Source: Closterium sp. NIES-65
Taxonomy: Eukaryota > Streptophyta > Zygnematophyceae > Desmidiales > Closteriaceae
Direction of reading: 5' to 3'
Length of the DNA: 64,000 bases
NCBI GenBank assembly: GCA_948144175.1
Contig: CANXME010000418.1
Coordinates: forward strand, 681,001-745,000
Shown: positions 15,726 through 22,257 of the stretch, in pieces
Numbering within the stretch: position 1 is the first letter of the stretch
How the letters are laid out: each line of letters opens with the position of its first letter
The notes under the pieces: generated by a model
Told to the model about the DNA's origin: nothing
Seen by the model: only the letters and a program-made list of their open reading frames with translations
Database searches by the model: none
Position numbers and translations under genes: made by a program

Positions 15726-18700
15726 ATGGCGCGGGAGGAGGAGGAGTATCCGGACGAGGGGGAGGAGCGGGTGATAAACGAGGAGTATAAGATCTGGAAG
15801 AAGAACACGCCGTTCCTCTACGACCTCGTCATCACGCACGCGCTCGAATGGCCGTCGCTCACCGTGCAATGGATGCCAGGTGGGATATGGATGCCACGTG
15901 TGATGTTTACAGCCTGCCACGTGTCATCTGGAAGAAGAACACGCCGTTCCTCTACGACCTCGTCATCACGCACGCGCTCGAATGGCCGTCGCTCACCGTG
16001 CAATGGATGCCAGGTGTGATGGTGTCTCGGCCAGATAATGCCACGTGTTCCCCCCTCCATTCGCGCTCGATTGATCGTCTCTCATTGTGCACTGGATGCC
16101 ACGTGTGTCCCCAGATGATACCACGTGCGTTGACGTCCGGTCTTGGTCGGCCTCCGTTCTCCGCCATTCCCCACCGCCCCCTTCCGATCTCTCAGCAACG
16201 CGCTGCAAACTACGGGACATGACATGACTTGAAACAGTCTTTTCCCGCGTTTCCGTACTACCCCATTCCCCTCGCTCCCCTTGCAGAGCGGCAGGAGCCA
16301 GCGGGAAAGGATTACTCTGTGCAACGGATGGTGCTGGGTACGCGCACGTCGGACAACGAGCAGAACTACCTCATGCTCGTCGACGTGCAACTGCCTCACC
16401 CTTACTCACCCCCTCCTCAACCCTCTCCCCGCCCCTCCCCGCCCCTCTCCTCCCCTGTGCTGCTTCTTACACAGAGCGGCAAGAGTCAGCGGGAAAGGAT
16501 TATTCAGTGCAGCGCATGGTGCTGGGAACGCACACGTCGGACAACGAGCAGAACTACCTCATGCTCGTGGACGTGCAGCTGCCTCACTCTGCCTCACCTC
16601 TCCCCACCCCTCCCCGCCCCTCTCCGCCCCTCTCCGCCCCTGTCCCGCTTCTTACACAGAGCGACAAGAGCCGGCAGGGAAGGACTATTCGGTGCAACGG
16701 ATGGTGCTGGGAACGCACACGTCGGACAACGAGCAGAACTACCTCATGCTCGTGGACGTGCAACTGCCTCTCGATGACTCAAAACCACTCTCTGCTCCAA
16801 TCCATTCTCTCTCTCGCCCCGACCCCTCCCCCACACAGAACGGCAGGAACCAGCAGGGAAGGATTACTCGGTGCAACGGATGGTGCTGGGAACGCACACG
16901 TCGGACAACGAGCAGAACTACCTCATGCTCGTGGACGTGCAGCTGCCCCTGGACGACACCGAGACGGACGCGCGCCAGTATGATGAGCAGCGCAGTGACG
17001 TTGGGGGATTTGGTGCTGGGTGCGCCAAGGTAGGAGGGGGAAGGGGGTGGGGTTGGGTGGGTTGGGGGGGGGAGGGGAGGGAATGGGTGTGGCAAGATGG
17101 GAGTGGGGAGACGGGGAGGAGGGGCAAATGGGGTGAAAAAGGGGGGCAAACGAGCAGAACTACCTCATGCTCGTGGACGTGCAGCTGCCTCTGGATGACT
17201 CGGAGACGGACGCGCGGCAGTATGATGAGCAGCGCAGTGACGTGGGGGGAATTCGGTGCTGGGTGCGCCAAGGTGGGAAGGGGGGGAAGGGGATGTAGTG
17301 GGAGGGGGGAGGTGGGGGATGGGAGAGGGCGGACGTGCAGTTGCCTCTGGACGACACAGAGACGGACGCCCGGCAGTACGACGAGCAGAACTACCTCATG
17401 CTCGTGGACGTGCAACTGCCTCTGGACGACACAGAGACGGACGCCCAGCAGTACGACGAGCAGAGGAGCGACATTGGCGGGTTCGGTGCTGGGAGCGCCA
17501 AGGTGGGAAGGGGGGAAGGGTGCGTGGGGAGACGGGTAGGAGGGGCAGGGGGGGCAAACGAGCAGAACTACCTCATGCCCGTGGACGTGCGACTGCCTCT
17601 GGACGACTCAGAGACGGACGCGCGGCAGTACGGCGAGCAGAGGAGCGACGTTGGCGGGTTCGGTGCTGGGTGCGCCAAGGTGGGGAGGAGGAGGGGGAGG
17701 GGTGTGGAGTTTTGCGCGTGGGGGTGTGTCAAGATCCGTGAGGGGGAGTGGGGCAAAGTGGGGAGGGGTGGTAAGATGGAGGATTCAGCGCCGGGTGCGC
17801 TAAGGTGGGGAGCTCGTCTGTATCCTTACAGGGGCCTACGTTTTGTGCTTCTATTTGCTAGCCATTGCACCCCCAACCCCTCTTTTTTCCCTCCCTTCCT
17901 TCCCGCCCCTTCTCCTCCGCCCCTCACACTCATTCTCACACCACCGCAGGTGCAAGTGGTGCAGCAGATCAACCACGAGGGCGAGGTGAACAGAGCGCGC
18001 TACATGCCCACTCCCCCCCCCCCCCCCCCCCCACTTCTGCCCCACCCGGCATTCCCTCACGCGCGCTCACTCTCTCAGGTGCAAGTGGTGCAGCAGATCA
18101 ACCACGAGGGCGAGGTGAACCGAGCGCGCTACATGCCGCAGAACCCCTTCCTCATCGCCACCAAGACCGTCTCTGCCGAGGTGAGCACTCTTTGGCTGGT
18201 TTCGAGCATCCTTAAAACGGGTACAGCGGTGTAGTATTGGCCTACCCAGGGAGCACTACATGCCGCAGAACCCCTTCCTTATCGCCACCAAGACCGTCTC
18301 TGCTGAGGTGTGCTCCCTCTTGCTTGTTTCGAGCTTTCTTTAAACGGGTACAGCTGTGTAATAACAGCCTTTTTATGGCGCGCTACATGCCAGAGAACCT
18401 ATCACCACCAAGACAGTCTCTGCTGAGGTGAGATGAATCAAGACCGATCCCGTCTTGGTGGCTCCAAGACCGTCTCTGCTGAGGTGAGATGGCATTATTA
18501 AGGCCCATTGTGCTCCCAGTGTGCCCAAACCCCCCTGCCATACGTGTTCGTTCTAGTTAGATTACCCTTGTTCCGCCTCCCCTGCACCGCCTCCTCTGCT
18601 GCCTTCCCTCCCTCCCCTGGCCCCGGCCCACAGGAGGGCACGTGCGATCCGGATCTGCGCCTGAGGAGTCACAAGGCGGAGGGGTACGGGCTGTCCTGAA

Positions 18701-21700
18701 GCCCCTTCCGCGTTCTCTTACCAACCCTCTGCTACCTTCCCTCCCTCCGCCTCCCCTGCCCCCGCTCCACATCCACAGGTATTTGTATTCGACTACAGCA
18801 GACACCCGTCAAAGCCCCCTCAAGAGGGCACATGCAACCCTGTTCGACTCATCCCCCACACCCCACCCCACAGGTATTTGTATTCGACTACAGCAGACAC
18901 CCGTCCAAGCCCCCTCAAGAGGGCACATGCAACCCTGTTCGACTCATCCCCCACACCCCACCCCACAGGTATTTGTATTCGACTACAGCAGACACCCCTC
19001 AAAGCCCCCTCAAGAGGGCACATGCAACCCGGACCTGCGCCAGAGGGGCCACAAGACAGACGGGTACGGGCTGTCCTGGAGCCCCTTTTGCGCCACAGGT
19101 GCAAATTTTCAGCGCATATTTCCTCCTCCGCTTCCCCTGTTCGACTCATCCCCCACACCCCACCCCACAGGTATTTGTATTCGACTACAGCAGACACCCC
19201 TCCAAGCCTCCCCTAGAGGGAACATGCAACCTTTTGAGTCGACTCAAAAGTCAACTCCTCCCCTAGAGGGAGCATGCAACCTCGACCTGCGCCTGAGAGG
19301 CCACAAGACGGAGGGGTAGGGGCCGTCCTGGAGTCCCTTCCGCGCCCACCTACCCACCCTCTGCTCTCTTGCTCCGCCTCCCCTCCCCTGGCCCCGGCCC
19401 ACAGGTATTCGTGTTCGATTACAGCCGGCACCCATCAAAACCCCCGCAGGAGGGCACATGCAACCCCGACCTGCGCCTGAGGGGCCACAAGACGGAGGGG
19501 TACGGGCTGTCCTGGAGCCCCTTTCGAGCCGGGCACCTGCTGAGCGGGTCAGACGACATGCAGATCTGCGTGTGGGACATCGGCGCGGCCACTAAGGCGA
19601 ACAAAGTGGTGGAGGCGAAACACGTGTTTCGGGTGGGTTGGGAGGGGTGGGGAGGGGTTGTGAGGGGGCCACCTGCTGAGCGGATCAGATGTCATGCTGA
19701 TCGGGCTGCTATTAAAGCCAACATAAGTGGATGCTCTGCTGCTGCTGCTCTGGCACCTGCGCTCCCCCTCCCTCCCCACCCACGCACTCTTGTCAAGCCC
19801 CACGCACACACAGACGAGATTCGCACAGTCTGAAAGCCCGTTCTTCCCCGCATCCCACCCCTGCTCTCCATCCACATTCCCTCTCTCTCCCGCTGCTCAA
19901 CCAACCCAGGCACACACGGGGGTGGTGGAGGACGTGGCGTGGCACTGCCGGCACGAGTACCTGTTTGGGTCCGTGGGGGACGACCAGCAGCTGCTGCTCT
20001 GGGACCTGCGCTCCCCCTCCCCATCTACGTGCTCTCACCAACCCACGAGCACACACAGACGTGATTTTAGCCGTCTCAAAAGCTCAGTTGCCCGCGCCCT
20101 CAACCTCCACACCCTCTTTTTTTGCACAACTCCCCCTCTCCCCCCCCCCCTCCCCACCCACAACTCCCCCTCTCCCCCCCCTTCCCCACCCACAACTCCC
20201 CCTCTCCCCCCTCCTCCCAGGCACACACGGGGGTTGTTGAAGACGTGGCATGGCACTGCCGGCACGAGTACCTGTTTGGGTCCGTGGGGGACGACCAGCA
20301 GCTGCTGCTCTGGGACCTGCGCTCCTCCGCTGTTGACAAACCCGCGCACGCGGTTACCGCACATCCTGCCGAGGTAAGTGAAGGCCCCACGCCGCACCAC
20401 ACCACGCCACACCACTCCTCACCAGCAGCTGCTGCTCTGGGACGTGCGCTCCTCTGCTGTCGATAGACCCGCACACGCGGCTGCCGCGCATCCTGCCGTG
20501 GGACGTGCACCACATCGCACCACATTACACCGCACCAGTAGCTGCTGCTCTGGGGCCTGTGCTCCTCTGCTGTTGACAAACCCGCCCATGCAGTTCCCAA
20601 CATGCGCTTGCCCCCATCGGGTGAACTGCCTGTCCTTCAACCCGTTCAACGAGTGGGTGCTGTGCTGGTGACAGGGACCGCTGATAAGCCTATGGTTCCC
20701 ATTCCTCTCCCGAAATGCCCAATCAATTCAGCTCTCCTCTCCCAACACGCGATCGCCCCCATCAGGTGGACTGCCTGTCCTTCAACCCCTTTGCTCTTTC
20801 AATCGATTTCTCCTCCTCTCCTCATTCCGTTCGAGCGCCTCTCTCCTCTCTCCATTCTTCTTGCATGAACCCGTCCACATATGCTCACGTGAACCCGTCC
20901 ATTCACACATGACTCGATCCCACCAGGTGAACCGTCTGTCGTTCAATCCGTTCAACGAGTGGGTGCTGGTGACAGGGACAGCTGCAAAGACTGTGGCTTC
21001 GCATTCCACCCCCCCTTTTGCCTATTCCGTCCAACCCTCTTCTCCTCATCCCTTCATTCCTCGCACGTGACCCTATCCCACCAGGTGAACTGTCTGTCGT
21101 TCAATCCGTTCAACGAGTGGGTGCTGGTGACAGGCTCGGCTGATAAGACAGTGGCTCTGCATGACATTCGGAACCTCTCTAGGCGCCTGCACACATTTGT
21201 TCAACACACGTGAGTGGAGACACACTTGCATGCATGGTGTCATTTTGTCCCACGTACCTATGTCTGATATGCTGTGCCCGCCATTGTGCATAATAAACTG
21301 TGGGGAAAAGAAGAACAAAAAGCCGAAAGCTTTCCGGGTCTTCGCACAAAACATGGCACCCCTGCCTTCGTGCCTGCGCCTCATTATTTTTCCCAATGCC
21401 TTCTCCCCCTGCCTTCTCCCCCTGCCTTCTCCCCCTGCCTTCTCCCCCTGCTTTATCCCCCTGCCGAACCGAGTGCAGGGAGGAGGTGTTTCAGGTGGGG
21501 TGGAGCCCGAAGAATGAGACCATCCTAGCCTCCTGTGGGGCTGACAGGCGGCTCATGGTCTGGGACCTTAGCAGGTGTTTCCCTTTTTTTCTCTCTCTCT
21601 TTGTCTTATGAAGAATGAGACCATCCTTTCGTCATTTAGCCTGTGCTGTTTTTTTTTTCCAAGTCAGCCAGCCCACTCACCTGGCGGCTCAACCAGCTGC

Positions 21701-22137: not shown

Positions 22138-22162
22138 GCGCGGTTTGAGTCGTTCAAAAAAT

Positions 22163-22257
22163 CAGATCTGGAAGATGGCGGGATGACGAGGAGGAGGAAG
22201 GGGGGGAGGACATGGGGAGAGATGCAGTGGGGAGGAGACGGATGACGGAATGAGCTA
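22163..22257 (+). pseudogene. Echo of the MSI1 terminal exon, including its stop
   Basis: After the stop at 22135-22137 the sequence repeats CAGATCTGG, GATGACGAGGAGGAGGAAGG, GAGAGATGCA and GGATGAC[T/G]GAATGAG with small changes. The duplication therefore also affected the 3' UTR boundary, not only introns. A 28-bp echo of exon 7 (GAAGAATGAGACCATCCT) lies at 21604-21632. Confidence 0.85.

Follow-up and report, generated by a model that had tools for sequence, protein, structure and literature searches.

Half-exon copies beside intact exons in MSI1 and neighbouring genes of Closterium sp. NIES-65, with a tentative origin in exon-seeded recombination

The window analysed here is a stretch of 64,000 nucleotides from Closterium sp. 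NIES-65, a single-celled zygnematophycean green alga and thus a relative of land plants (contig CANXME010000418.1, positions 681,001 to 745,000 of the forward strand), and all coordinates below are positions within it. Eight exons at 15726-22137 on its plus strand, once spliced, encode one intact MSI1/RBBP4 protein of 435 amino acids, among whose nearest protein matches are Closterium strains; a tRNA-Ile gene (AAT; 15097-15170, minus strand) lies directly upstream. Comparison of each exon, extended by 20 nt of intron, with its own locus (blastn, E<=1e-3, both strands) gave 28 partial local copies of MSI1 exons, none of them inverted, comprising 11 that include the acceptor border of the exon, nine that include the donor border, one copy of the 3' end of exon 8 and seven internal pieces. 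Together they account for 2,231 of the 5,104 intron bases of the gene (44%, with up to 20 nt of intron flank included), and Tandem Repeats Finder independently reported units of 185, 127 and 95 bp at MSI1.

An earlier reading of this sequence, referred to below as the original prediction, had counted about 25 copies, a figure that the search bears out, and had held that all eight exons are copied, which stands for the other exons but hardly for exon 7, represented only by a weak, exact 18-bp match that reaches no border. It had also stated that upstream copies keep the acceptor and downstream copies the donor. This was the case for 11 of the 14 upstream and 9 of the 14 downstream copies, but seven of the 28 are internal and keep neither. 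The further claim that decay grows with distance survives only as a weak trend (Spearman -0.32, p=0.098 for MSI1; -0.30, p=0.038 for all 49 copies described below). The exons and copies of MSI1 are as follows.

15726-15879, plus strand: exon 1, from start codon to donor
15926-16020, plus strand: exon 1 copy, exon positions 67-154 and donor, exon part 100% identical
16062-16105, plus strand: exon 1 copy, positions 114-154 and donor, decayed (82%)
16284-16395, 16469-16583 and 16654-16778, plus strand: three exon 2 acceptor copies, exon positions 1-109/119
16839-17029, plus strand: exon 2
17149-17295, 17378-17520 and 17557-17697, plus strand: exon 2 donor copies, starting at exon position 67-69
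17331-17388, plus strand: exon 2 internal piece
17947-18008, plus strand: exon 3 acceptor copy, positions 1-59 (98%)
18079-18180, plus strand: exon 3
18253-18327, 18378-18432 and 18464-18488, plus strand: three exon 3 donor copies
18627-18710 and 19266-19346, plus strand: two exon 4 internal copies, upstream of the exon
18773-18840, 18861-18935, 18956-19094 and 19158-19231, plus strand: four exon 4 acceptor copies
19405-19632, plus strand: exon 4
19667-19702, plus strand: exon 4 internal copy, downstream of the exon
19738-19768, plus strand: exon 5 internal copy
19905-20017, plus strand: exon 5 acceptor copy (95%), with similar copies in a NIES-53 gene model
20221-20373, plus strand: exon 5
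20421-20507, plus strand: exon 5 copy reaching the donor border, splice site altered
20534-20598, plus strand: exon 5 internal copy
20613-20688, plus strand: exon 6 acceptor copy, AG lost
near 20740-20791, plus strand: short third exon 6 copy, under the blastn threshold and not counted
20907-21004, plus strand: exon 6 acceptor copy
21085-21209, plus strand: exon 6
21479-21574, plus strand: exon 7
21610-21627, plus strand: the 18-bp match to the interior of exon 7
21879-22137, plus strand: exon 8, with stop codon
22181-22253, plus strand: exon 8 copy, 3' end only, without a splice border

The pattern was not confined to MSI1. Three further genes of the window, encoding calnexin, a LanC-like protein and a universal stress protein (USP), could be modelled with GT-AG introns and complete reading frames, and the four gene models together hold 49 copies at 18 of their 27 exons. 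Copies sit inside introns in all four genes, and they comprise 15 acceptor copies, all upstream of their exon, 21 donor copies and the one last-exon end, all downstream, and 12 internal pieces. The claim that the duplicated units straddle splice sites is borne out, with 36 of the 49 (15 acceptor, 21 donor) reaching a splice border. The rule that acceptors lie upstream and donors downstream is, however, a geometric consequence whenever a local duplication does not disrupt the exon. None of the 49 copies spans both borders, which is weak evidence because few random units would hold a whole exon (about 1-8% of units of 100-200 bp). Chance was rejected as the explanation: the same blastn threshold gave no inverted copy for any of the 27 exons when copies inside real exons were left out, the one weak inverted match (75%) of an earlier search lying inside LanC-like exon 4. 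Copies were found for 3 of 10 exons in calnexin, 3 of 4 in the LanC-like gene and 4 of 5 in USP, and they make up 5.5%, 38% and 28% of intron bases, respectively (up to 20 nt of flank and, for USP, the arrays included).

4748-10278, plus strand: calnexin gene, 10 exons
6467-6571, plus strand: calnexin exon 5 donor copy
7490-7533, plus strand: calnexin exon 6 internal copy
8306-8363, plus strand: calnexin exon 7 donor copy
10978-14042, minus strand: USP gene, 5 exons (Pfam Usp, 2.9e-29)
12870-12990, minus strand: USP donor-containing array, 23-bp unit
12329-12681, minus strand: USP donor-containing array, 35-bp unit
12268-12207, 12133-12082, 11604-11535, 11372-11350 and 11271-11198, minus strand: further USP copies
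31938-35662, minus strand: LanC-like gene, 4 exons
34648-34576, 34520-34406 and 33200-33125, minus strand: LanC-like acceptor copies
33429-33377, minus strand: LanC-like donor copy
34757-34697, 33325-33270 and 34890-34835, minus strand: LanC-like internal pieces, the last (77%, C/T-rich) doubtful and perhaps a chance match but retained in the count

By eye, similar copies are also present in a further spliced gene at 36896-40129, one open reading frame of which matches Pfam ADIP and which lies outside the count of 49. There, 37744-37799 has an acceptor copy at 37542-37599, and 37831-37913 is a 21-bp array carrying a GTGAGT donor.

The original prediction had proposed that short tandem duplications nucleate at exon borders. 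For units above 60 bp this part stood: 17 splice borders were duplicated in the four genes, against two intron-only pairs. The 17 exclude a side of USP exon 2 seen only as a 23-bp array, and the end of the last MSI1 exon. One of the two pairs, 9145/9277 in calnexin, itself contains exon sequence, namely the final 8 bases of exon 9 together with its donor and intron (9277-9340), and the other, 11837/11948 in USP, was counted as intron-only although its unmasked alignment runs on into copies of exon 3. The expectation was taken from random, exon-preserving duplication in the four genes stripped of their copies, in which 12% of 35-bp units and 22-55% of units of 60-200 bp would touch a border; in simulations (60 trials each) intron-only units were detected in 73-88% and border units in 95-97% of cases. 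Allowing for this difference in detection, the excess at borders gave p values of 0.0075 for 200-bp, 0.0011 for 150-bp and 2.5e-5 for 100-bp units, the lowest being 2.5e-8, where exon sides are the unit of counting, the unit lengths are assumed, and the data are four genes of one window. The share of bases lying in local direct copies was higher in introns (45-47%) than in exons (24-25%) or other intergenic DNA (12-13%), a comparison made for MSI1, calnexin and the LanC-like gene with short arrays masked and with USP and the gene at 36896-40129 placed in the intergenic class. No local direct copies were found in transposon-labelled stretches or in an intronless frame of 380 codons.

Repeats and repeat-free stretches of other kinds were also seen in the window. 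Several Copia-type retrotransposon frames on both strands at 45287-59555 hold no local direct copies and make a useful negative control. At 27252-31517 an 8-bp unit (GCTGTTAC) is repeated about 535 times, preceded by a 20-bp array at 26711-27249, and a 603-bp tandem pair (91% identical) occupies 24254-25448 in DNA without a gene model. The introns of calnexin (9216-9289), USP (11948-12080) and MSI1 (about 19232-19262) share short motifs of the GAGTCGACTCAAAA type.

The differences between copies and exons were then classified by codon position in 38 copies from three genes, the USP copies being excluded. Mismatches numbered 47/906, 37/910 and 192/910 at the first, second and third positions, so that the third position held 192 of the 276. 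With each substitution counted once there were 112 synonymous and 89 nonsynonymous changes, a synonymous excess (p=5.5e-4) over the ceiling of about 44% for neutral decay, which was derived arithmetically from a neutral fraction of 0.25-0.28. Among changes common to at least two copies, or dividing the exon from all of its copies, 41 were synonymous and 6 nonsynonymous. Two copies of exon 4, at 18779 and 18874, show 9 and 10 synonymous changes, respectively, relative to that exon, and no nonsynonymous ones. The synonymous excess rejects plain fossil decay of the local exon as the whole story, which the changes private to single copies would by themselves allow. At the same time, 53 of 77 amino acid differences in the copies affect positions at which the compared orthologues do not vary, and some of the changes are stops; judged from these sequences, the copies are not under constraint now. 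Because the synonymous excess is joined with changes at invariant residues, several copies seem to derive from a functional exon that had diverged synonymously and became a copy only later. In a comparison with other gene copies made at the amino acid level only, the LanC-like copy residues R249P and E424D are those of real exons in the gene copies of other strains, and the copy of LanC-like exon 4 begins with H in place of S, as in P0242; two more differences match Klebsormidium only.

These observations led us to an explanation that we consider tentative, at a little under an even chance, namely that recombination between diverged versions of the same gene (alleles, homeologs or paralogs) produced the copies as partial local duplications anchored on exons, through recombination and splicing steps that we infer. 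A break in or near an exon would invade a diverged copy of the gene, in which only the exon is similar enough for pairing. Synthesis would restore the exon and continue into the donor's intron. Non-homologous joining would then connect the new end to the opposite side of the break, so that an intact exon would remain, with a half-exon and its splice site left in the intron. Such remnants could multiply as tandem arrays, and splicing would pass over them, since each brings either an acceptor or a donor but not both; the innermost acceptor-donor pair would win, as expected under exon definition. Recombination seeded in this way predicts that long units are anchored at borders, that the exon stays intact, that copies obey the side rule and lie in direct orientation, that their divergence is synonymous, and that their flanks are often unrelated. 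Our analysis shows the border preference above 60 bp, the intact exon, the rules of side and orientation, the mostly synonymous divergence, the lack of present coding constraint and comparable copies in the gene models of other strains. The portions of PMC10407611 used here describe strain NIES-4550, a member of this species complex, as of hybrid ancestry, with recombination between sequences of different origin whose borders were confirmed by polymerase chain reaction.

Several results weigh against exon-seeded recombination. The private changes (71 synonymous, 83 nonsynonymous) fit neutral decay (p=0.33 against 44%). Only 3 of the 77 amino acid differences match a Closterium orthologue (R249P in two copies, E424D in one), and residues shared with orthologues could be ancestral states. 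For the exon 1 copy, which matches its exon at 100%, and for the exon 3 acceptor copy, at 98%, a diverged source is not apparent; the calnexin copies lack a clear third-position excess (6, 3, 8; p=0.19). The calnexin result and the identical exon 1 copy make the generality of a diverged source doubtful. Moreover, copies within one array are not independent, and at the blastn threshold copies are lacking for 7 of the 10 calnexin exons. Border anchoring in this window is a property of the longer units only: among arrays with periods up to 60 bp, 17 are wholly intronic and 4 lie at a border (4/21, p=0.24), so that these show no preference for borders, against the idea of nucleation there. One of the 17, in USP intron 1 (13097-13579), consists of 21 units of 23 bp (97%).

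The main rival is undirected short tandem duplication, acting anywhere, with selection removing the events that break an exon or duplicate it whole; half-exons would be tolerated and would stay recognisable longer because the exon itself is unchanged. We regard this as a serious possibility, though on the doubtful side. It would explain why the exon is intact and why copies are direct and keep to their side, and it is favoured by the recent arrays (95-bp unit, 98%; 35-bp unit, 99%), the 17 short-period intron arrays without exon sequence and intergenic tandem pairs such as 24254/24870. Some arrays are surely of this origin. If the original prediction of plain short tandem duplication were the whole account, a contiguous unit should repeat the intron between neighbours beyond the copy itself. 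When scored at z>2.5 against shuffles, such a shared flank was present in 10 of 24 neighbour pairs, as simple tandem duplication expects and as a further point against recombination with a diverged copy, but went undetected in the other 14, including the pair with the exon 3 acceptor copy (98%). Because that intron is rich in C and prone to slippage, the flank result is suggestive only. What undirected duplication does not account for is the shortage of intron-only pairs above 60 bp and the synonymous excess beyond the neutral bound.

A second alternative is that exon borders are preferred sites of breakage or slippage, for example coupled to transcription or splicing, and that gene conversion from functional exons refreshes the copies. 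Such sites would give the border excess of longer units and the donor-containing short arrays in USP and at 37831-37913, and conversion would fit the mosaic variants seen among exon 2 copies. However, two processes are required, short arrays as a class are not biased to borders, and the stops and the many changes at invariant residues mean that any refreshment would be incomplete. We therefore think this combination unlikely.

It is very unlikely that the copies are functional, either as alternative half-exons or as decoy splice sites that regulate splicing. Comparable copies in the models of other strains would fit such a role, as would the splice dinucleotides kept in 14 of 15 acceptor and 20 of 21 donor copies (all 21 if 3 bases of slack are allowed), although this retention is biased by the way such copies are defined. 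Just 2 of 35 sites in the copies would, if used, keep the frame, and this, with the changes at invariant sites, speaks against alternative exons. Since the frame would be broken in the other 33, splicing would normally have to use the nearest acceptor upstream of the exon body and the nearest donor downstream of it, the innermost choice that exon definition would predict. At USP exon 3, 12329-12681 holds about 10 near-identical 35-bp units (99%), each with the exon end and a GTGAG donor; the exon's own donor is trailed by about 9 further units, giving ten candidate donors in a row. These roughly ten near-identical donors, of which presumably one is right, amount to a natural experiment on splice-site choice. 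Gene annotation, for its part, can be misled by the copies. Two NIES-65 models, P0017 and P0082, take as their start an ATG at 15869, which is out of frame and lies 11 bases from the exon 1 end; both run on into the first part of intron 1 and include the copy of exon 1. Over 68% of the MSI1 query, P0082 shows 100% identity, and P0017 takes in further copies to become an MSI1 model of 723 amino acids that contains translated intron stretches of the window.

The comparison with sister strains that the original prediction had called for was run on gene models, not on genome reads, and comparable copies were found, some with similar flanks. In a gene model of Naga37s-1 (P0003), two donor copies of exon 2 are flanked by peptides that resemble those at 17149 and 17557, and a NIES-53 model (P0001) has two exon 5 acceptor copies, one ending after WDLRS like 19905-20017. 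An exon 7 donor copy is present in the Yama58-4 calnexin model (P0121) and an exon 2 acceptor copy in a second NIES-65 LanC-like model (P0244). From these models, the copies seem to predate some of the strain splits. According to the sections of PMC10407611 on which we draw, the NIES-65 genome is a Canu assembly of 110 Gb of PacBio reads with an N50 of 30 kb, far longer than the 6.4-kb gene, and although the same sections describe a species complex with extensive copy number variation and one strain with a hybrid genome, this read length and the copies in the models of Naga37s-1, NIES-53 (PromethION reads) and Yama58-4 make an assembly artefact or haplotype mixture extremely improbable.

A wider claim, which we hold to be possible rather than probable, is that intron growth in Closterium is due largely to exon-seeded repair involving diverged gene copies, the resulting half-exons being invisible to a spliceosome that defines exons. 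If so, hybridisation and copy number variation would be linked to intron length, and introns would hold a local archive of former alleles. The copies may record allele exchange and, if they prove general in the genome, would be a concrete source of intron sequence.

The original prediction knew of no described system of this kind, and no report of a systematic half-exon copy pattern was found in the open-access literature searched, the portions of PMC10407611 used here dealing with exons and introns in other connections, but there is one precedent for a single event. In the potato RdRp gene, as the consulted part of PMC4974935 describes it, one direct duplication crosses an intron-exon boundary and made a new spliced intron. 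The likeness lies in the boundary-crossing direct duplication of an acceptor with the 5' part of its exon, whereas here the copies number in the tens, belong to many exons in several genes, lie inside introns and diverge mostly at synonymous sites. Novel introns in Drosophila, in the account excerpted from PMC2891723, likewise turn duplicated exonic sequence into intron, but there the duplication holds a proto-splice site and creates a new intron position, whereas here the gene structure is unchanged. Introners, on the text of PMC9860276 used here, resemble the present case in adding intron sequence to many genes, but they are dispersed elements, whereas each copy counted here comes from an exon of its own gene. 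All 49 lie within 1.5 kb of that exon, which speaks against an introner family, sharing between genes not having been searched. Tandem exon duplication copies whole exons with both splice sites, which are usually spliced; it shares with our case the local direct copies but not their extent, 0 of 49 having both borders. One-sided invasion in double-strand break repair (Belmaaza and Chartrand, 1994) reportedly joins one homologous and one end-joined junction and so yields partial duplications. It is thus familiar from the repair of breaks, and here we infer it as a possible source of intron sequence.

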